DNA of 33,706 nt from Longimicrobium sp. (lineage in GTDB: Bacteria > Gemmatimonadota > Gemmatimonadetes > Longimicrobiales > Longimicrobiaceae), in the NCBI GenBank assembly GCA_036389795.1, contig DASVWD010000130.1, forward strand, positions 1 to 33,706. Reading direction: 5' to 3'. Both the position numbers and the translations under genes were made by a program. How positions within the stretch are numbered: position 1 is the first letter of the stretch; the number at the start of each line of letters is the position of its first letter. The notes beneath the pieces were generated by a model. The model did not search any database. It was not told the origin of the DNA and worked only from the letters and a program-made list of their open reading frames with translations. Below, one piece after another: positions 24,866 through 33,706 of this stretch.

Positions 24866-27733
24866 ATGGCTGATCTTCGCGACTTCCACGGCCCCAACGC
24901 GGGCTACGTGCTGGACCTCTACGAGCGCTTCCGGCGCGACCCCTCCTCGGTGGACGAGGGGTGGCGCTCCTTCTTCGCGTCGTTCACCCCGCCGGCCGAG
25001 GCGCCCGCGGCCGCGCCCGCGGAGGGCGGGGCCGCGCCGGCCGCCGCCGGGGTCGACGTCGAGAAGCTGGTGCGCGCGCGCGAGCTCTCGCGCACCATCC
25101 GCACGCGCGGGCACACCGCGGCCAGGCTCGATCCGCTGGGGTCGGAGCCGGACCGCGACCCGGCGCTCTCGCCCGCCTTCCACGAGCTCACCGAGGACGA
25201 CCTGGCGGCGCTCCCGGCCGCCGTCGTGCTCACCCCCGACCCGGCCTCGCGCACGGCGCTGGACGAGGTGCGCCGCCTCTGCGGCATCTACTCGGGGACC
25301 ATCGGCTACGACTACCACCACATCCCGAACGCCGAGGAGCGCAACTGGCTGCGCCAGGCGATCGAGACCGGCCGCTACCGGGAGCCCCTCTCGGCCGAGG
25401 AGCGGAAGGACCTCCTGCAGCGCCTGTCGCAGGTGGAGGGGTTCGAGAAGTTCCTGCACCGCGCCTTCTTCGGCCAGAAGCGCTTCTCCATCGAGGGGAC
25501 CGACGCCATGGTCCCCATGCTCGACGAGCTGGTGCGCGAGGCCGCCCGGGCGGGCGCGAAGGACGTGATCGTGGGGATGGCGCACCGCGGGCGGCTGAAC
25601 GTGCTCACCCACGTGATGGAGAAGCCGTACGCGCTGATGCTGGCCGGCTTCCAGAGCGCCCAGCGCGCCCCCGGCGTCGACGACGCGCAGAACACCGACG
25701 AGCCCTCGGGCGACGTCAAGTACCACATGGGGTGGAAGGACGAGCGCGAGATCGAGGGGACCACCATCCGCCTCACCCTCTCGCCCAACCCCAGCCACCT
25801 GGAGTTCGTGAACCCCGTGGTGGTGGGGATGACCCGCGCCGCGCAGGACGACACGTCTCGGCCGGGGCCGCCGCGGGTGGACCACGGCCAGGCGCTGGCG
25901 GTGCTCATCCACGGCGACGCCGCCTTCCCCGGGCAGGGCGTGGTGGCCGAGACGTTCAACATGAGCGCGCTGAAGGGCTACACGGTGGGCGGCACCGTGC
26001 ACCTGATCGCCAACAACCAGGTGGGCTTCACCACCGATCCGCAGGACGACCGCTCCACCCGCTACGCCAGCGACCTGGCCAAGGGCTTCGAGGTCCCCGT
26101 CGTCCACGTCAACGCCGACGACCCCGAGGCGTGCCTGGCGGTCACGCGCCTGGCCTTCGCCTACCGCCAGCGGTTCCGCAAGGACTTCGTCGTCGACCTG
26201 GTGGGCTACCGGCGCTGGGGGCACAACGAGGGCGACGAGCCGCTCTTCACCCAGCCGCTGATGTACGAGGCGATCCGCACCCACCCCACCGCGCGCGAGC
26301 TCTTCGCCCGGCGGCTGGTGGAGGAGGGCGTCGTCACGCAGGAAGAGGCCGACGCCATGCTGCAGCGGGTGAGCGACGAGCTGTCGCGCACGCTGGAGTC
26401 GCTCGGCGAGGGCGGCGGCCACGACGACGAGGACGACGAGGAGCCCTCGCCCAACGGCCGCCGCGCCGACGCGCGGGAGACCGGCGTCCCCGCCGAGCGG
26501 CTGCGCGAGCTGAACGAGGCGCTGCTCCGGCGCCCCGAGGGCTTCACCCCCAACGCCCGCCTGGACAGGAACGTGCTCCAGAAGCGGCGCGACGCGCTGG
26601 AGTCGGCCCAGCCGGCCGTCGACTGGGGGCACGCCGAGACGCTGGCCTTCGCCTCGCTCCTGGTGGAGGGCGTCCCCGTGCGCCTCACCGGGCAGGACGC
26701 CGAGCGCGGCACCTTCAGCCACCGCCACGTGGTGCTGCACGACGCGAAGACCGGCGCCGTCTACAACGTGCTGCACGGGCTGGAGCAGGCGCGGGCCAGC
26801 TTCGAGGCCTGCAACTCGCCGCTCTCGGAGATGTCGGCGCTGGGCTTCGAGTACGGCTACTCGGTGCTCGACCCGCAGGCGCTGGTGGTGTGGGAGGCGC
26901 AGTTCGGCGACTTCGCCAACGGCGCGCAGGTGATCATCGACCAGTTCCTGGCGGCCTCGCACGTGAAGTGGGAGCAGCGCTCGGGGCTGGTCCTCCTCCT
27001 CCCGCACGGCTACGAGGGGCAGGGGCCCGAGCACTCCAGCGCCCGCCTGGAGCGCTTCCTCCAGCTGAGCGCCGAGGACAACCTGCGGGTGGCCAACTGC
27101 ACCACCGCCGCGCAGTACTTCCACCTCCTGCGCCGGCAGGCCGCGCTCCTGGGCACCGACCCGCGCCCGCTGGTGCTGATGAGCCCCAAGAGCCTGCTGC
27201 GCCACCCGCTGGCCGCGGCCACGCTGGAGCAGCTGGCCACGGGCCGCTTCCACCCGGTGCTGGTGGACCGCCCCTTCGGCGGGCACGCGGAAGGCGTCAC
27301 CCGCCTCCTGCTCTGCAGCGGCAAGGTCTACGTGGACCTGGTGGGCACGGGCGACGAGCAGCGCGCCGAGCGGCTCTCCATCGAGGGCGTGGACCGCGTG
27401 GCGGTCGCGCGGGTGGAGGAGCTGTACCCGTTCCCGGCGGAGGAGATCGAGCAGGCGCTGGCGTCGTTCCCGGCGCTGCGCGAGGTGGTGTGGGTGCAGG
27501 AGGAGCCGCGCAACATGGGCGCCTGGAGCTTCGCCGCCCCGCGGCTGCGGGAGATCCTGGGCGAGCTGCCGCTGCGCTACGAGGGCCGCCCCGAGCGCGC
27601 CAGCCCCGCGGAAGGCTTCGCGCACCGCCACACCACCGCGCAGGCGCGCATCGTCCGCGCGGCGCTCTCCGGCGCGCCGGCGTTCGCGGCCGAGCCCGCG
27701 GGCGACACGCTGATCGGCAAGCGGAAGCTGTAG
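24866..27733 (+). CDS. sucA: 2-oxoglutarate dehydrogenase E1 component
   Basis: E1 decarboxylates 2-oxoglutarate with thiamine diphosphate and transfers the succinyl group to the lipoyl domain of E2, in the TCA cycle. The 955-residue protein has the family's N terminus (NAGYVLDLYERFRRDPSSVDEGWRSFF), then the catalytic block EGFEKFLHRAFFGQKRFSIEG, the GMAHRGRLNVLTHVM motif, YHMGWKD, the thiamine-binding region HGDAAFPGQGVVAET...NNQVGFTTDP, and the C-terminal LVLLLPHGYEGQGPEHSSARLERFLQL block. An acidic insertion (GGGHDDEDDEEPSPNGRR) at about 515-535 is unusual and probably a surface loop. The ATG has GAAGGTG upstream. sucB follows after a word-repeat hairpin. Confidence 0.95.
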   Translation: MADLRDFHGPNAGYVLDLYERFRRDPSSVDEGWRSFFASFTPPAEAPAAAPAEGGAAPAAAGVDVEKLVRARELSRTIRTRGHTAARLDPLGSEPDRDPALSPAFHELTEDDLAALPAAVVLTPDPASRTALDEVRRLCGIYSGTIGYDYHHIPNAEERNWLRQAIETGRYREPLSAEERKDLLQRLSQVEGFEKFLHRAFFGQKRFSIEGTDAMVPMLDELVREAARAGAKDVIVGMAHRGRLNVLTHVMEKPYALMLAGFQSAQRAPGVDDAQNTDEPSGDVKYHMGWKDEREIEGTTIRLTLSPNPSHLEFVNPVVVGMTRAAQDDTSRPGPPRVDHGQALAVLIHGDAAFPGQGVVAETFNMSALKGYTVGGTVHLIANNQVGFTTDPQDDRSTRYASDLAKGFEVPVVHVNADDPEACLAVTRLAFAYRQRFRKDFVVDLVGYRRWGHNEGDEPLFTQPLMYEAIRTHPTARELFARRLVEEGVVTQEEADAMLQRVSDELSRTLESLGEGGGHDDEDDEEPSPNGRRADARETGVPAERLRELNEALLRRPEGFTPNARLDRNVLQKRRDALESAQPAVDWGHAETLAFASLLVEGVPVRLTGQDAERGTFSHRHVVLHDAKTGAVYNVLHGLEQARASFEACNSPLSEMSALGFEYGYSVLDPQALVVWEAQFGDFANGAQVIIDQFLAASHVKWEQRSGLVLLLPHGYEGQGPEHSSARLERFLQLSAEDNLRVANCTTAAQYFHLLRRQAALLGTDPRPLVLMSPKSLLRHPLAAATLEQLATGRFHPVLVDRPFGGHAEGVTRLLLCSGKVYVDLVGTGDEQRAERLSIEGVDRVAVARVEELYPFPAEEIEQALASFPALREVVWVQEEPRNMGAWSFAAPRLREILGELPLRYEGRPERASPAEGFAHRHTTAQARIVRAALSGAPAFAAEPAGDTLIGKRKL

Positions 27734-27740
27734 GGAAATT

Positions 27741-27828
27741 CAGGGGACAGGGAACAGGGTACAGGGTACAGCCAGCCGGTTCGATCTCGGTCGCGGGCTG
27801 TCCCCTGTTCCCTATCTCCTGTACCCTG
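27741..27828. repeat. inverted ACAGGG word repeats between sucA and sucB
   Basis: The left arm (27741-27773) and right arm (27796-27828) are imperfect inverted repeats made of tandem GGGACAGGGAACAGGGTACAG-type words. CTTTTG follows the right arm. The structure could reduce or modulate read-through from sucA to sucB. Confidence 0.75.
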
Positions 27829-27862
27829 CTTTTGAAGGTCTTAACCCGAGCGCGAAACCCAC

Positions 27863-29182
27863 ATGCCCGTCGAGATCCGCGTCCCGCCGCTGGGCGAGTC
27901 CGTCGTCGAGGCCACCGTCGGCCGCTGGACGAAGCAGGAAGGCGACCCCGTCCAGAAGGACGAGATCCTGGTGGAGCTGGAGACCGACAAGATCACCGTC
28001 GAGGTCGCCGCGCCCGCCGCCGGGACGCTAGGCAAGGTCCAGAAGCAGGAGGGCGAGACGGTCGGCGTGAACGAGCTGCTGGCCGTGATGGAGGCGGGCG
28101 CCGCCGCGCCGGCCGAGCAGGCGGGGCAGGCGGCCTCCGCGCGCGCCGAGCAGCAGGCCGGCGCCGAGACTCCGACGCCCACGCCCGAGGCCGCCACGGC
28201 CACCGCCACCGCCGAGCCGGAAGCCCCGGCCGGCGGCGCGCAGACCTCGCCCGCGGCCCGCGCCATCGCCGCCGAGCACGGGGTGGACCTGGGGACCGTC
28301 CGCGGCTCGGGGCCCAACGGGCGGATCACCAAGGAGGACGTGCTCCGCATCATCGAGGACGGGCGCAAGGCCGCCGGCGCCCCGCCGCGCGAGGCCGCCC
28401 CGGCTGCGACTCCGGCGACTGCCGCGACGCCGGCGCCCTCCCCGGAGCGGAAGCCGGCCCCGGCGGCGGCACCGGCGGGCGAGCGGGCGGAGACGCGGCA
28501 GCGGATGTCGCGCCGGCGGCAGACCATCGCGAAGCGGCTGCTGGAGGCGCAGCACGGCACCGCCAGCCTCACCACCTTCAACGAGGTGGACCTCTCGGCG
28601 GTGATGGAGCTGCGCAAGCGCCGCCAGGACGAGTTCGTGAAGAAGCACGGGGTGAAGCTGGGCTTCATGTCGTTCTTCACCAAGGCCATCATCGGCGCGC
28701 TCAAGCAGTTCCCGCGGCTCAACGCCGAGATCCAGGGCGACGAGATCGTCCTCAAGCACTACTACGACATCGGCATCGCCGTGGGGGCCGAGGAGGGGCT
28801 GGTGGTCCCCGTGGTCCGCAGCGCCGACCGGAAGAGCTTCGCCGAGCTGGAGCGCGAGATCGGCGAGCTGGGGACGCGGGCGCGCGAGGGGAAGCTGACG
28901 CTGGAGGAGCTGCAGGGCGGCACCTTCACCATCACCAACGGCGGGATCTTCGGCTCCATGCTCTCCACGCCGATCCTGAACCCGCCGCAGGTGGGGATCC
29001 TGGGGATGCACAACATCGTGGAGCGCCCCGTGGTGGTCGACGGCCAGGTCGCCATCCGCCCGATCATGTACGTGGCGCTCACCTACGACCACCGCATCGT
29101 CGACGGCAGCGAAGCCGTGCGCTTCCTGGTCGCGGTGAAGAAGATGCTGGAGGACCCGCTCAGCATGCTGATCGAGGGATGA
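27863..29182 (+). CDS. sucB: 2-oxoglutarate dehydrogenase E2 (dihydrolipoyl succinyltransferase)
   Basis: E2 carries the lipoyl arm and transfers succinyl to CoA. Domains in order: lipoyl domain (residues 1-77) with the modified lysine in ELETDKITVEV (Lys43); an Ala/Pro/Glu/Thr-rich flexible linker (about 80-125); the peripheral subunit-binding domain SPAARAIAAEHGVDLGTVRG (about 130-170); another Ala/Pro linker (175-205); and the catalytic core starting RQRMSRRRQTIAKRLLEAQ. The core ends with the active-site DHRIVDGSEAVRFL (His of HxxxD type). The succinyl-type signature YYDIGIAVGAEEGLVVPVVR is present. The stop overlaps the next small gene as ATGA. Confidence 0.95.
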   Translation: MPVEIRVPPLGESVVEATVGRWTKQEGDPVQKDEILVELETDKITVEVAAPAAGTLGKVQKQEGETVGVNELLAVMEAGAAAPAEQAGQAASARAEQQAGAETPTPTPEAATATATAEPEAPAGGAQTSPAARAIAAEHGVDLGTVRGSGPNGRITKEDVLRIIEDGRKAAGAPPREAAPAATPATAATPAPSPERKPAPAAAPAGERAETRQRMSRRRQTIAKRLLEAQHGTASLTTFNEVDLSAVMELRKRRQDEFVKKHGVKLGFMSFFTKAIIGALKQFPRLNAEIQGDEIVLKHYYDIGIAVGAEEGLVVPVVRSADRKSFAELEREIGELGTRAREGKLTLEELQGGTFTITNGGIFGSMLSTPILNPPQVGILGMHNIVERPVVVDGQVAIRPIMYVALTYDHRIVDGSEAVRFLVAVKKMLEDPLSMLIEG

Positions 29183-29310
29183 GCGAGACGCACGACGCCA
29201 CGCCGGCCGACGACGAGGCCGGGTTCTGGATCGCCATAAGCCAGCCGTCGCTCGAGGCGGTCTGGGACAACGCGGACGACGACGTCTACCAGCAGCTTCT
29301 CCAGGGATGA
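29179..29310 (+). CDS. 43-aa protein, antitoxin-like tail, coupled to sucB
   Basis: The ATG overlaps the sucB stop (ATGA), so the reading frame is translationally coupled. It is acidic, and the segment SLEAVWDNADDDVYQQLLQG resembles the C-terminal ends of short antitoxins that run '...WDNEEDDVYDxL' and are normally followed by a PemK- or VapC-type toxin gene. No toxin follows here; a tandem repeat begins 12 nt after its stop. It could be an orphan antitoxin or an accessory protein. The short length limits certainty. Confidence 0.5.
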   Translation: MSETHDATPADDEAGFWIAISQPSLEAVWDNADDDVYQQLLQG

Positions 29311-29625
29311 TGTCGTCGTGAACGAGTGCGTGAGTGCGTGAGTGCGGGAGTGCGAGGGTGGTTCGCGCTCCCGCACCTTCGTACGTAGATTCCGCCCCCG
29401 CGGGCGACGGACCTGTGGCACGCATCCGCCGCGTCCCCGGTTGAAACCGGGGGCTACGAAAGCACAAAGTCCGCCTTCGCGGACTGCGGGGCCGGCGTCC
29501 GCGCACGGGGGTGGTTGCGGCGCGGAGGGAGCCCGCGCAGGCGGGGCTTTTCGCGGTTGTTGCCGCGGGTTCACCCGCCCGTGGACGAATGAACGCGACC
29601 TGGACTCGGGACCCGAAGATAGATC
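29311..29625. other. 315-bp intergenic region, dense with repeats, before lpd
   Basis: The region holds four structures and no gene. A GAGTGCGT tandem repeat is at 29323-29357, with an arm that pairs with CTCCCGCAC at 29368. A CCCCGGTTGAAACCGGGG hairpin is at about 29435-29452, similar to one at 8921. An AGTCCGCCTTCGCGGACT hairpin is at about 29468-29485. REP-like copy D is at 29521-29580. They lie between the small gene after sucB and lpd, so lpd may be separately transcribed. Confidence 0.65.
29521..29580 (+). repeat. REP-like repeat, copy D
   Basis: It reads GAGGGAGCCCGCGCAGGCGG, then GGCTTTTCGCGGTTGTTGCC, then GCGGGTTCACCCGCCC. It differs from copy A by an inserted G (GGCGGGGC) and one substitution, and ends 45 nt before the lpd start. 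Confidence 0.85.
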
Positions 29626-31020
29626 ATGGCTGAAGAGAAAACGTTCGACCTCGTCGTCCTCGGCGCGGGCCCCGGCGGCTACGTGGCCGCCATCCGCGCG
29701 GCGCAGCTGGGGTTCAAGACGGCGTGCATTGAGAAGGAGCCGGCGCTGGGGGGCACCTGCCTGCGCGTGGGGTGCATCCCCTCCAAGGCGCTGCTCGACT
29801 CGTCCGAGCTGTTCGAGCAGATCCGGCACAAGGCGGAGGCGCACGGGATCAGGGTCGACGGCGCCTCGGTCGACGTGCCCGCGATGATGAAGCGCAAGGA
29901 CGGCGTGGTGAAGGGGCTCACCGACGGCGTCGCCTTCCTCTTCCGCAAGAACAAGATCGAGTGGATCAGGGGCTTCGGCCGCCTCACCTCGCCCGAGACC
30001 ATCGAGGTGGCCGCGGAGGACGGCGCGAAGACCACGGTGCGGGCGAAGACCGTCGTCCTGGCGCCGGGCTCGGTGCCGGTCGAGCTGCCCTTCCTCAAGT
30101 TCGACCACGAGCGCATCGTCGACTCCACCGGCGCGCTCTCCATCCCCCAGGTCCCCGGCCACCTGGTGGTGGTCGGCGGCGGGGTGATCGGGCTGGAGCT
30201 GGGGAGCGTGTGGCTGCGCCTGGGCGCGAAGGTCACCATCCTGGAGGCGATGCCCACCATCCTGCCGGGGATGGACGGCGAGGTGATCAAGGCCGCCGAC
30301 CGCATCTTCCGCAAGCAGGGCTTCGACATCCGCACCGGCGCGCGCGTCACCGGCGCCGAGCGGCGGGGCGACAGGGTGATCGTCTCGGTGGAGGGGCAGG
30401 AGCCGCTGGAGGCCGACTACCTGCTGGTGTCGGTCGGGCGGCGCGCGTACACCGAGGGGATGGGGCTCGAGGAGGCCGGCATCCGCCTGGAGCGCGGGGT
30501 GATCCAGGTGGACGGGCGCTACCACACCGGCGTGGGCCAGGTCTACGCCATCGGCGACGCCATCGGCGGGCGGATGCTGGCGCACAAGGCCGAGGAGGAG
30601 GGCGTGGCCGCGGTGGAGCTCGCCGCGGGGAAGCACGGGCACGTCAACTACGACGCCGTGGCCAACGTGGTGTACACCTGGCCCGAGATCGCCTCGGTGG
30701 GGATGACGGAGGAGGAGGCGAAGGCCGCCGGGCGCGAGACCAGGGTGGGCAGGTTCCCCTGGAGCGCCAACGGCCGCGCCAAGGCGATGGGCGAGCAGGA
30801 CGGCTTCGTGAAGGTGATCGCCGACGCGGCGACCGACCGCGTCCTGGGGGTGCACATCCTGGGGCCGCGCGCGTCGGACCTGGTCGCCGAGGCCGCGCTG
30901 GCGGTGGAGTTCGAGGGCGCGGCGGAGGACATCGGCCGCAGCGTCCACGCGCACCCCACCCTCCCCGAGGCGGTCAAGGAGGCCGCGCTGGCCGTGGCGG
31001 GCCGCGCGATCCACGTCTAG
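29626..31020 (+). CDS. lpd: dihydrolipoyl dehydrogenase
   Basis: E3 reoxidises the dihydrolipoyl arm of the 2-oxoglutarate (and pyruvate) dehydrogenase complexes, passing electrons to NAD. The 464-residue sequence has the FAD site LVVLGAGPGGYVAAIRAAQ, the redox disulfide GGTCLRVGCIPSKALL (Cys45 and Cys50), the NAD site LVVVGGGVIGLELGSVWLRLG, the FAD ribityl-binding YAIGDAIGG region, and the dimerisation end HAHPTLPEAVKEAAL with the catalytic His-Glu pair. The Shine-Dalgarno before the ATG is weak (GAAGATAGATC). It is the third subunit gene of the sucAB cluster. Confidence 0.96.
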   Translation: MAEEKTFDLVVLGAGPGGYVAAIRAAQLGFKTACIEKEPALGGTCLRVGCIPSKALLDSSELFEQIRHKAEAHGIRVDGASVDVPAMMKRKDGVVKGLTDGVAFLFRKNKIEWIRGFGRLTSPETIEVAAEDGAKTTVRAKTVVLAPGSVPVELPFLKFDHERIVDSTGALSIPQVPGHLVVVGGGVIGLELGSVWLRLGAKVTILEAMPTILPGMDGEVIKAADRIFRKQGFDIRTGARVTGAERRGDRVIVSVEGQEPLEADYLLVSVGRRAYTEGMGLEEAGIRLERGVIQVDGRYHTGVGQVYAIGDAIGGRMLAHKAEEEGVAAVELAAGKHGHVNYDAVANVVYTWPEIASVGMTEEEAKAAGRETRVGRFPWSANGRAKAMGEQDGFVKVIADAATDRVLGVHILGPRASDLVAEAALAVEFEGAAEDIGRSVHAHPTLPEAVKEAALAVAGRAIHV

Positions 31021-31409: not shown

Positions 31410-31823
31410 ATGGCAACCAGCGACTGCGACGGAACCGGGATCTATACGACGATGAAGGGCGAGAGGCGGGAGATCCGCATTGAGCTGCTCGAACCCGAGA
31501 TAGGGGAATTCTGCAGCAGGTTGACACCGGCGCAACGGCTCATGGGTGGAGCCTACCTCAACCGTCTCGCTCGCCAGATCATCCGAGACGAGGTAGCCGA
31601 CCTGCACCCCGACTGGTCATCCGAGCAGATCGACTGCGAGGTGGCGCGCAGGTGGCTGAACGAGGAGTTTTCCGAGAGAGTAAAGGAGGAGGCGCGGCCT
31701 TACGAAGGAGTTCATCGCCGATCCCGACTTCCTGGCCTACATCAACGCGTGACCTTGCGGAGGAAGGCGGAGTCGAGGGCGGCGCACTTCGCGTGGGCGT
31801 TGCAGACCCAGCGCACGTCATAG
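31410..31823 (+). CDS. hypothetical protein, possible frameshift near its end
   Basis: The first 95 residues are coherent: MKGERREIRIELLEPEIGEF, then LTPAQRLMGGAYLNRLARQI and LHPDWSSEQIDCEVARRWLN. This is the helical 'LTPAxRL...HPDW' pattern seen in small proteins of unknown function, often next to nucleotidyltransferase genes. After EEARP the frame turns into arginine-rich sequence that overlaps the convergent MBL gene by about 80 nt. The neighbouring frame reads TKEFIADPDFLAYINA and stops at 31750. A one-base shift near 31700 would therefore give a natural end. A good Shine-Dalgarno (GGAGAAGG) precedes the ATG. The frameshift may be real or a sequencing error. Confidence 0.5.
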   Translation: MATSDCDGTGIYTTMKGERREIRIELLEPEIGEFCSRLTPAQRLMGGAYLNRLARQIIRDEVADLHPDWSSEQIDCEVARRWLNEEFSERVKEEARPYEGVHRRSRLPGLHQRVTLRRKAESRAAHFAWALQTQRTS

Positions 31824-32527
31824 GGGCGGATGCGCTCGAAGAGGGAGCGCAGGCTCTCGCGCGCGGTCCGCCTGTCGGTGGTGAAGATCGGGTCGGCGCC
31901 CTTGAAGCCGGTGAGCGGCTTGCGCGCGACGGCGTCGCCGGCGAAGAGCACGCCGCGGAAGAGGTAGGCGGCGTGCCCCGGCGTGTGCCCGGGGACCAGG
32001 AAGGCGCGCACCGTGTCGGCGCCGAAGGTGAAGAAGGTGTCGGAGGCGAACGGGCGCACAGCCACCTCGCCCGGCCACGGACCCGCCCTCCCCGACACCG
32101 ACTGGCCGGCGCGCGAGGGGAAGTCGGCGTACGTCGCCCGGCCCTCGAAGAACGGCGCCTCGGCCGCGGACAGGTGGAAGCGGGCGTGGCGCACGGTGCG
32201 CCAGGCGCCGATGTGGTCGCGGTGGCCGTGCGTGAGGAACACGTCGGTCACGTCGCGCGGCTCCGCGCCGAGCCGGCGCAGGCGCTTCGCGAGCGCCGCC
32301 CCCGCGCCGTGCCAGCCCAGGTCGACCACGATCACCCCGCTGTCCGTGCGCGCCGCGTACACCATGCTCTGCCACGGGCCGCCCGTCGGGAACGCCACCG
32401 AGCGCCCCGGCTCCCGCACCTGCCGCAGGTTGTACGTGCAGCCGGCGAGCGCGGACAGGACCGCCGCGAATCCAAGGCGGACCGCGCACCGTACGGTCGC
32501 AGCGCAACGGCAGACGGGCGTGCTCAT
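31742..32527 (-). CDS. MBL-fold metallohydrolase, lipoprotein
   Basis: A signal peptide ends in the lipobox ALAGC, so this beta-lactamase-fold enzyme should be anchored in the envelope. The metal-binding motif is LTHGHRDHIGAW (HxHxDH), followed by VPGHTPGHAAYL (third histidine), LFAGDAV (bridging Asp) and a late His in VCNAHAKCAAL. The spacing is that of general MBL hydrolases (glyoxalase II, lactonase, beta-lactamase types); the substrate cannot be deduced. It is 261 residues long with an ATG at 32527. The gene is convergent with the upstream hypothetical gene and overlaps it by about 10 nt if that gene ends at 31752. Confidence 0.85.
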   Translation of the reverse strand: MSTPVCRCAATVRCAVRLGFAAVLSALAGCTYNLRQVREPGRSVAFPTGGPWQSMVYAARTDSGVIVVDLGWHGAGAALAKRLRRLGAEPRDVTDVFLTHGHRDHIGAWRTVRHARFHLSAAEAPFFEGRATYADFPSRAGQSVSGRAGPWPGEVAVRPFASDTFFTFGADTVRAFLVPGHTPGHAAYLFRGVLFAGDAVARKPLTGFKGADPIFTTDRRTARESLRSLFERIRPYDVRWVCNAHAKCAALDSAFLRKVTR

Positions 32528-32606
32528 CCGTCCCTCTTGACCGTGCACTTTGTTCGCATTATCATCGTCCAGAACGTGCGTTTTGCTCCTGGAAAAGGAA
32601 CTGACA

Positions 32607-32978
32607 ATGAAGACGACTCGCCGCGAAGGGTTCAGGCCAGTGGGCGGCACGCTCCGGATCGGACGTCACGTGGTGACGCTGAGCCGCGGCGGCCTGGCGC
32701 TTGCCGAGTCGGCACTGGTGGCGGTGTTCGCCGCCCTGGCCGCGACGCTGGCCAACCTCGACGCGCTGGCGGCGGCGGGAGACCGGGCGGTCTGGCTCGT
32801 GGCGGCCGCGCTGCTGGGCACCGCGGTGATGCTGGCGGCGCTCAGCCGGCTTCTCCTCGGCGTGGCGTCGCGCAAGGCCGGTCCGCCGTCGCACGGGGTG
32901 GAATACCACCTCGTCCAGGTGTACAACCGGCTCCTGGACGAGAGCAGCCTGAATCCGCACGGGAAGGGCCGCGCGTGA
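32607..32978 (+). CDS. small two-helix membrane protein (123 aa)
   Basis: The ATG at 32607 has AAGGAA seven nt upstream. After a basic N terminus (MKTTRREGFRPVGGTLRIGR) there are two hydrophobic segments, ALAESALVAVFAALAATLANL and AVWLVAAALLGTAVMLAALSRLLLG. The soluble tail follows (HGVEYHLVQVYNRLLDESSL). No family is recognised. The TGA overlaps the GTG of the next gene (GTGA), so the two proteins are made together and may form one membrane complex. Confidence 0.65.
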   Translation: MKTTRREGFRPVGGTLRIGRHVVTLSRGGLALAESALVAVFAALAATLANLDALAAAGDRAVWLVAAALLGTAVMLAALSRLLLGVASRKAGPPSHGVEYHLVQVYNRLLDESSLNPHGKGRA

Positions 32979-33460
32979 GCGAGGCTCCCGGAACTGCGCC
33001 GGGATCCGCGCCCGCTGCCCTTCCCGCCCCACCCGACCCGCCCTCCACATCACGCCCGGAGCCCAGGCTCTCCCCGGAGATCTCCGTCTGGGTGGACTCC
33101 CGCCTCTCGTCGGTGAACCCCGCGCTCTTCTCGCAGCGCGGGTTCGCCGAGCTCAAGCTGCGGATCGACGGCTACGTCGTGGACCTGGTGACGGAGTCGC
33201 GGCGGATCGCCGAGCGGCACCAGGCGGACTCGATCTCGCCGGCGTACGTCCAGCGGGCGAGCGAGCACCTGGTCTCGCGCACCCGACGGCGGCGCTTCAC
33301 GCTGATCGGGACGCTGGGAGGGATCGCGCTGGGGTCCTCGTTCTCCAGCTTCCTCGACGTGGCGTCGGCCGCCGCGCCCTCCACCCCGCAGGTGCTGATC
33401 GCGGCGGTGCTGGGCGTGCTGGGCGCCTTCTGCATCGCGCTGCAGTTCTCGCAGGAATAA
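32975..33460 (+). CDS. membrane protein with a histone-fold-like segment (161 aa)
   Basis: Translation starts at a GTG overlapping the preceding stop. The first 30 residues are Pro/Ala-rich and disordered. Then comes a helix-turn-long-helix-turn-helix pattern: VNPALFSQRGFAELKLRIDG, YVVDLVTESRRIAERHQADS and ISPAYVQRASEHLVSRTR. This resembles a histone fold, with 'I-A-E-R-H-x-A-x-x-I-S-x-x-Y-V-x-x-A' as the alpha2-alpha3 junction. An arginine cluster (RTRRRR) leads into two hydrophobic helices (FTLIGTLGGIALGSSF and VLIAAVLGVLGAFCIAL). The histone resemblance is my inference from sequence pattern. A terminator follows. Confidence 0.6.
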   Translation: MSEAPGTAPGSAPAALPAPPDPPSTSRPEPRLSPEISVWVDSRLSSVNPALFSQRGFAELKLRIDGYVVDLVTESRRIAERHQADSISPAYVQRASEHLVSRTRRRRFTLIGTLGGIALGSSFSSFLDVASAAAPSTPQVLIAAVLGVLGAFCIALQFSQE

Positions 33461-33488
33461 GCACGCCCGCCAGCCCGCCGCAAGCCGA

Positions 33489-33521
33489 CGAGGCCCGCCG
33501 ACCGGGCGGGCCTCGTCTTTC
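33489..33521 (+). terminator. Rho-independent terminator of the membrane-protein pair
   Basis: GACGAGGCCCGCC GACCG GGCGGGCCTCGTC is a 13-bp stem (33487-33517) followed by TTTCG. The inner stem is the same as in the hairpin at 9154. Confidence 0.85.
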
Positions 33522-33536
33522 GATCCGAAGCGCGGG

Positions 33537-33706
33537 CTCATACCACCTTGCAGAGCATCGTTCGGGAATAGGTCCTGAAAGGCCTCACACAGAGAAACGG
33601 AGAAACAGAGGACTTCGGTTTTCTCTGTTCCTCTGTTTCTCTGTGTGATTCCAATCTGTTGCTGTTCTGTTTGGAAACAGAACGATGCTCCGAGACGTGG
33701 TATCAG
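33537..33706. mobile_element. MITE-like element with 27-bp imperfect inverted repeats
   Basis: CTCATACCACCTTGCAGAGC then ATCGTTC at the left pairs with CTGATACCACGTCTCGGAGC then ATCGTTC (reverse complement of the right end): 22 of 27 positions agree. A second inverted pair lies inside (CACACAGAGAAACGGAGAAA then CAGAGG, with CCTCTGTTTCTCTGTGTG), and GTTCTGTTTGGAAACAGAAC forms another small palindrome. There is no reading frame. A related half is at about 3634-3700. It may extend beyond the window edge. Confidence 0.7.

Follow-up and report, generated by a model that had tools for sequence, protein, structure and literature searches.

The end of a 33,706-nucleotide stretch of Longimicrobium sp. 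DNA (contig DASVWD010000130.1; hereafter, the window) raised the question of whether a small bacterial membrane protein carries a histone-type fold and, if so, what the fold is used for. The original prediction, made from the sequence of the window, was that two coupled genes encode membrane proteins and that the second protein has a histone-fold-like segment. Our analysis supported both parts, with the fold leaning on a divergent second copy of gene 2 in a related genome and on predicted models of low to modest confidence. The explanation that we came to favor, by a modest preference, is that the gene 2 protein would be a cytoplasmic histone-fold pairing domain carried on a hairpin of two transmembrane helices, in complex with a partner that also has two transmembrane helices, and that it would act as a protein-protein scaffold and not as a chromatin protein.

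Gene 1 (plus strand, 32607-32978) encoded a protein of 123 residues, and gene 2 (plus strand, 32975-33460) started with GTG and encoded a protein of 161 residues. Reading of the frames and of the GTG start bore out the two overlapping genes and the GTGA start/stop overlap (plus strand, 32975-32978) that had been predicted. A Shine-Dalgarno-like stretch was found by eye 5' of each gene. Upstream of gene 1, a consensus scan identified a sigma-70-type promoter match (TTGACC-17-TATCAT; plus strand, 32537-32565), which agreed with the consensus at 10 of 12 positions (the mean in 50 shuffles was 0.0), although a consensus match of this kind is, alone, no evidence of function. There were 41 bases between the end of the promoter-like match and gene 1. 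Downstream of gene 2 was a GC-rich hairpin (plus strand, 33487-33517) that was a likely transcription terminator. The hairpin had a 13-bp stem and a folding energy of -33.8 kcal/mol for 55 nucleotides (33478-33532), and none of 200 shuffled sequences was as stable. The pair had been predicted to end in a strong terminator; the hairpin was strong, but the T run was short and weak (UCUUUCG), and the hairpin was absent from the list produced by a terminator scan.

The contig ended 246 bases 3' of gene 2, and its last segment (33537-33706) formed a palindromic element of about 170 bp, with outer arms of 27 nucleotides that were 81% complementary and inner arms of 45 nucleotides that were 76% complementary. 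A search of the source genome with this element yielded 76 matched stretches, a count that includes the element itself and some matches to the opposite strand of the same place. Seven other copies were 86 to 98% identical across nearly the full length. The element is a MITE-like dispersed repeat and was probably the cause of the break in the assembly.

Hydropathy analysis placed two membrane helices in the gene 1 protein and two in the gene 2 protein, and the latter result agreed with the original prediction. The gene 2 protein began with a Pro-rich N-tail (residues 1 to 33), followed by the histone-fold-like domain (residues 34 to 102, encoded by plus-strand positions 33074-33280 and delimited by the model and by structure comparison), an Arg cluster (residues 102 to 107), and membrane helices at about residues 109 to 127 and 140 to 158. 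Both the IAERHQADSIS junction and the arginine run RTRRRR were present, as had been noted. The gene 1 protein had a C-terminal tail ending in YNRLLDESSLNPHGKGRA, and the most conserved stretch of the protein was the YNRLLDESSLNP part. Specifically, comparison with the orthologue described below placed the best-conserved part near the C-terminus (YNR-LDESSLNP). Because positive charges precede the first membrane helix in both proteins, the positive-inside rule suggested that the N- and C-termini of both are probably cytoplasmic.

Searches of NCBIfam and PHROGs produced weak matches (best E values of 0.069 and 0.018, respectively). Two candidate identities for gene 2 were rejected. One was DUF6518, for which there was a sub-threshold Pfam match over the membrane half of the protein (E 0.0024; 17.8 bits versus a cut-off of 25); the orthologue did not share it, and it was therefore taken as a membrane-segment match. 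The other was a TRADD-N/CyanoTRADDas_TM (PF20712) protein, an identity suggested by the architecture. Neither gene 2 nor its orthologue had a Pfam match to this family, and the accessible portions of the relevant literature contained no such pair. The sole PF20712 place in the source genome at E values of up to 1 was a different gene (G000:C264:42686-42880; L015), whose product scored above the curated cut-off (E 3.8e-12). Judging by the name of the family, we presume that it is tied to TRADD-N conflict systems.

Relatives of gene 2 were present in 2 of 21 family genomes, namely, the source genome and that of a second species from the same genus (G008). The orthologous pair in G008 had the same gene order and an overlap of one base (TGATG), and its gene 2 protein was 58% identical over residues 26 to 161. 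The dN and dS values were 0.35 and 1.38 for gene 2 (dN/dS of about 0.25) and 0.66 and 1.34 for gene 1 (dN/dS of about 0.5). Such an overlapping, orthologous pair with these ratios exceeds what chance would produce, and comparison of the two sequences indicated that gene 2 is under purifying selection and gene 1 more weakly so. The original prediction had been open to refutation if no other genome held the pair; the pair was conserved, but narrowly.

The searches of larger genome sets were consistent with a narrow distribution. Searches with gene 1 matched 2 genomes among 61 relatives and 2 among the 395 genomes of a phylum sample. A gene 2 search matched 3 of the 61 genomes, one of which (G045; E 0.0098) was set aside as an N-tail match, and 5 of the 395 genomes, three of which were discarded once translated, since what matched was a membrane segment or a frame interrupted by stops. 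When the divergent copy was used as the query, 5 of 298 genomes matched and none held a credible family member; two of the matches were FtsH-type lids (L021 and L023), and the other three were not small membrane proteins of the gene 2 kind. A class-wide search with a three-row profile matched 26 of 394 genomes, and 2 of these genomes (three places) held the gene 2 family. Thus, the inspected places of the larger searches contained no further credible gene 2 member. Bacteria outside the phylum were covered by two scans of species-genome contigs with patterns that reach close relatives, and three scans of viral contigs had the same reach; none of the five yielded relatives. Plasmid searches returned nothing or a single match, at an E value of 1, in an Orc1/Cdc6 gene, and phage searches returned nothing better than an E value of 0.1, both kinds of search likewise reaching close relatives. 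No description of the pair was found in the accessible text of the published literature.

A whole-genome search of G008 identified a second, divergent relative of gene 2 on contig C193 (33% identity; E 5.3e-6), and hhalign aligned gene 2 with this copy over 93 columns (E 5.2e-6). The second copy followed another overlapping gene whose product has two transmembrane helices, and the gene order and overlap were the same as those of the window pair. No homology was detected between this gene 1 and the window gene 1 (hhalign probability, 1.5; E 0.035), and the two gene 1 proteins appear to have only position and topology in common. In the second-copy protein, only a single segment passed the hydropathy threshold, although the predicted model had two long helices there. 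The second pair (L019, 114-3268) was located between genes for a class-III aminotransferase and a GNAT acetyltransferase, and another small membrane-protein frame was present farther out.

The second copy provided the strongest sequence link to histones. When it was aligned with six histones, the hhalign score was 29.3, while shuffled sequences scored 9.7 ± 2.0 with a maximum of 17.6, and none of the 300 shuffles reached the score of the copy. Searched alone against the PDB, the second copy matched single-copy H2B with E values of 0.0044 to 0.01 and a tandem H2B construct with E values of 1.8e-6 and 9e-7, and a reversed-sequence control listed no histone. The three-row profile matched a single H2B domain (E 0.0068) and the tandem construct (E 3.5e-7) over positions 3 to 66 with one gap. 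The best 60 of its 181 PDB rows were all H2B and near-copies of one another, and they amount to something close to one hit given the redundancy of H2B in the PDB. The second copy also matched the Pfam CBFD_NFYB_HMF family with an E value of 0.01, which was below the cut-off.

The window protein itself was less informative. It had no Pfam histone match, and PDB searches with the window protein, with its G008 orthologue, and with a two-row profile of both listed no histone. When the window core and the orthologue were aligned with histones, the hhalign score was 13.4, the alignment was out of register, and 15 of 300 shuffles reached the score. The window domain was identical to H2B at 7 of 46 positions and to HMfB at 7 of 46 positions. 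Counted on the alignment, the L1 serine and the L2 isoleucine were 35 residues apart, the same distance as in HMfB and H2B. Evidence that the window protein has a histone fold is thus indirect and comes from homology to the second copy, the predicted model, and the L1-L2 spacing.

Predicted structures pointed in the same direction. An AlphaFold2 model of the window gene 2 protein, built from two alignment rows, had a mean pLDDT of 55.7 and placed helices at residues 34 to 47, 49 to 53, 57 to 81, and 89 to 102, plus two more; three of these (34 to 47, 57 to 81, and 89 to 102) came close to the short-long-short pattern described in the original prediction. Of the five models of the second copy, which were built from three rows, the best had a pLDDT of 73.8 and the other four ranged from 66.6 down to 47.6. 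The second-copy model had an alpha2 helix at residues 14 to 41 and an alpha3 helix that continued into the membrane helix, and alpha1 was absent. In Foldseek searches of the PDB at E values of up to 10, the best 50 of 1273 matches to the window model and the best 50 of 740 matches to the second-copy model were all histone-containing entries, but H2B is so redundant in the PDB that 50 such rows are also close to one hit. The best E value was 0.16 for both models. With VIA-align, the highest Z score of the window model was 6.9. For the second copy, it matched chain F of the TAF5-TAF6-TAF9 complex (Z 8.1), nucleosome chain 9mmt_H (Z 7.5; rmsd of 1.0 over 49 residues), CENP-W (Z 7.4), and an archaeal histone (6.6), as well as unrelated helical proteins such as rubrerythrin (Z 7.7) and AhlB (7.2); according to the notes of the tool, a Z score below 8 may be ordinary.

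A serious rival to the histone fold, which we considered possible but on the unlikely side, is that the gene 2 domain is a helix-strand-helix module of the AAA+ lid type rather than a full histone fold, docking on FtsH, on a different membrane AAA+ protease, or on another partner. The LonB AAA-lid was the only Pfam family touched by all three gene 2 proteins (best E 0.0046), although its scores of 14.4 to 17.4 bits were below the curated cut-off of 22.4. Of the places matched by the three-row profile across the class, 25 were outside the gene 2 family. We inspected 20 of them, of which 16 were lids at the histone-like segment, 10 of the FtsH type and 6 of the LonB type as read from sequence, and 4 were not credible (L029, L033, L038, and L045). 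Pfam confirmed four of the lid loci, through either AAA_lid_3 with Peptidase_M41 or LonB_AAA-LID. FtsH and Lon are common genes and histones are rare in bacteria, so genome frequency is no fair contest between the two folds. The PDB holds both lids and histones, and there the best 60 of 181 rows were the H2B rows described above.

Direct alignments with lids also scored well. The window core aligned with seven FtsH-type lids with an hhalign score of 32.7, which none of 200 shuffles reached, and the second copy aligned with the lids with a score of 35.1 and 52% identity over 33 residues; however, these scores were inflated, because the same profiles had served to select the lids. LonB and Cdc6 lid models scored as well as histone models. 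The likeness to the C-domains of FtsH, LonB, and Cdc6 was found in the motif made up of the end of alpha2, a loop, and alpha3, and in the sub-threshold LonB-lid matches. A common helix-strand-helix motif has been proposed for histone folds and AAA+ C-domains in the accessible part of one report (PMC1847821), and on that proposal, a likeness to lids is expected of a histone fold and fits a lid-type module too. The lid match spanned 33 to 37 residues, or about half of the domain, and the histone match spanned 52 to 64; the long central helix was 25 to 28 residues in the models, longer than that of a lid; and gene 2 has no ATPase domain. No lid was present among the best 50 Foldseek rows for each model or among the VIA-align matches listed, a result that excludes nothing. 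We favor a histone fold over a lid on sequence and model grounds, given that its alignment is longer, that the central helix is longer, and that H2B ranked first in the PDB.

Handshake dimerization is general among histone folds, and a histone-fold-type domain in gene 2 would therefore most likely serve to pair the hairpins in the membrane and to retain the gene 1 protein. According to the explanation that we favored, the gene 2 protein would consist of a cytoplasmic alpha1-alpha2-alpha3 domain of the histone-fold type fused to the two-helix hairpin, and handshake pairing of two such domains would bring their hairpins together. The gene 1 protein, made from the same message and also having two transmembrane helices, would join this complex in the inner membrane, and its conserved YNRLLDESSLNP tail, a plausible docking peptide, would probably dock on the histone-like pair.

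Like H2B and HMf histones, the window protein had the L1-L2 spacing, a long alpha2 helix, and a similar predicted model, and H2B was the best PDB match of the three-row profile. It differed from these histones in its low identity (7 of 46 positions), its loss of the RxTxxxxD motif, its slightly acidic domain, and its fused membrane helices. The original prediction held that a domain of this kind tied to the membrane would be unusual in bacteria, which was only partly right, since the accessible text of Schwab et al. 2024 (PMC11390915) already reports transmembrane histones without DNA-binding residues as a minor category in prokaryotes, in a set gathered through the InterPro histone-fold superfamily. 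As described there, these proteins resemble the window protein in having a histone-type fold (predicted here), transmembrane segments, and no recognizable DNA-binding residues. The window protein is different in lacking a Pfam histone match, and the published set enters this comparison by its description only. The same text describes RdgC histone operons, which also combine a histone-fold gene with a membrane protein gene; in those operons, the histone gene comes first and is accompanied by genes for an RdgC-like protein and a four-domain transmembrane protein, whereas here the histone-like protein comes second and is itself in the membrane. Thus, the pair is probably a rare and divergent relative of the loosely described transmembrane-histone group, an already reported kind, as far as sequence and models indicate. 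If so, it would supply a concrete two-gene system for the transmembrane histones, a category that has been reported without an explanation, and it would show a histone-type fold in bacteria being used outside chromatin in connection with a membrane partner gene.

It is improbable, in our assessment, that the locus is instead a two-component membrane effector pair, namely, a pore-former and a regulator of the SLATT-like or toxin-antitoxin-like kind, with the helical domain in control of the hairpins. Small overlapping genes for proteins with two transmembrane helices and a patchy distribution would be in keeping with such a system, as would a weak SLATT_1 match in the G008 orthologue (residues 94 to 157; E 0.078). 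However, PADLOC matched none of the four proteins, and the SLATT score, found for one of the four, was 12.9 bits against an NCBIfam cut-off of 41. SLATT proteins are likewise small and have two membrane helices, but the match was far below the cut-off and mostly in the membrane half. The absence of credible relatives in the plasmid and phage searches and the corresponding chromosomal site of the pair in both species also argued against an effector.

The original prediction also suggested that the domain is DNA binding or oligomerizing, and our results made the second option likelier and did not support the first. In the accessible text of Schwab et al. 2024 (PMC11390915), the DNA-binding motif of nucleosomal and face-to-face histones is RxTxxxxD, with an L2 Lys/Arg in addition in nucleosomal histones. 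The motif was absent from all three gene 2 proteins, in which the corresponding residues were A84/S86/Y91 (window), A84/V86/Y91 (orthologue), and A44/V46/H51 (second copy), and the L2 lysine position was occupied by D, D, and G, respectively. The net charge of the domain was -1, -3, and -3, compared to +3 for HMfB and +4 for H2B. DNA binding is unlikely because the motif and the L2 lysine are missing and the domain is slightly acidic. A chromosome tether, in which the domain would bind DNA at the inner membrane, is consequently very doubtful despite the histone-like fold in the models and the second-copy profile and despite the arginine cluster at residues 102 to 107, since these arginines are at the membrane edge and are accounted for by the positive-inside rule.

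The double resemblance, to histones on one side and to AAA+ lids on the other, is relevant to how the histone fold is proposed to have originated. As a long shot, the family might be a surviving, membrane-anchored intermediate on the way from an AAA+ lid helix-strand-helix to a histone fold, with an alpha2-alpha3 region like that of FtsH and LonB lids, a histone-like long helix and loop spacing, and a dedicated partner with two transmembrane helices, and it would then be a membrane scaffold that has no chromatin role. The gene 2 members fell below the Pfam histone cut-offs, so such proteins may be under-represented in surveys that apply thresholds of this type; for bacteria, Hocher et al. 2023 (PMC10627809), according to the accessible text, used Pfam gathering cut-offs plus a further list in their survey.

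The genomic site of the pair was also compared across the genus. Beside the window pair was a gene for an MBL-fold protein (minus strand, 31742-32650; Pfam Lactamase_B, E 8.7e-23), relatives of which were detected at an E value of 1e-20 in 9 of 10 genus genomes and not in G003. In G008, the order was the MBL-fold gene, a membrane-protein frame without a Pfam match, the pair, and a tryptophan dioxygenase (TDO) gene (Pfam E 4.4e-33). Relative to this MBL-fold gene, both pairs were on the same side; the window contig stops 246 bases past gene 2, so that a TDO gene could not be seen there. In three genomes (G001, G002, and G007), the pair was absent and TDO directly abutted the MBL-fold gene, with 321, 164, and 150 bp, respectively, between match ends. 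The pair was also absent from G009, in which a relative of the G008 membrane-protein frame was located between TDO and the MBL-fold gene. In G004, G005, and G006, the MBL-fold gene was present, and neither TDO nor the pair was found within the stretches examined. Thus, the site of the pair corresponds between two species, and the others lack the pair. These sequences fit a single ancient gain of the pair with later losses, or the opposite course.

The segment between the MBL-fold and TDO genes (L046, L063, L067, L068, and L069) varied within the genus, in that it was empty in three genomes, held the membrane-protein frame alone in one, and held the frame plus the pair in G008. Elsewhere in the window, a row made up of genes for 2-oxoglutarate dehydrogenase E1 and an E2 acyltransferase and a lipoamide-dehydrogenase-like gene was located at 24866-31020, and a frame of 137 residues (31410-31823) had a sub-threshold match over residues 39 to 84 to an Rv0078B-related antitoxin family (E 1.9e-4; 21.8 bits versus 27.1).
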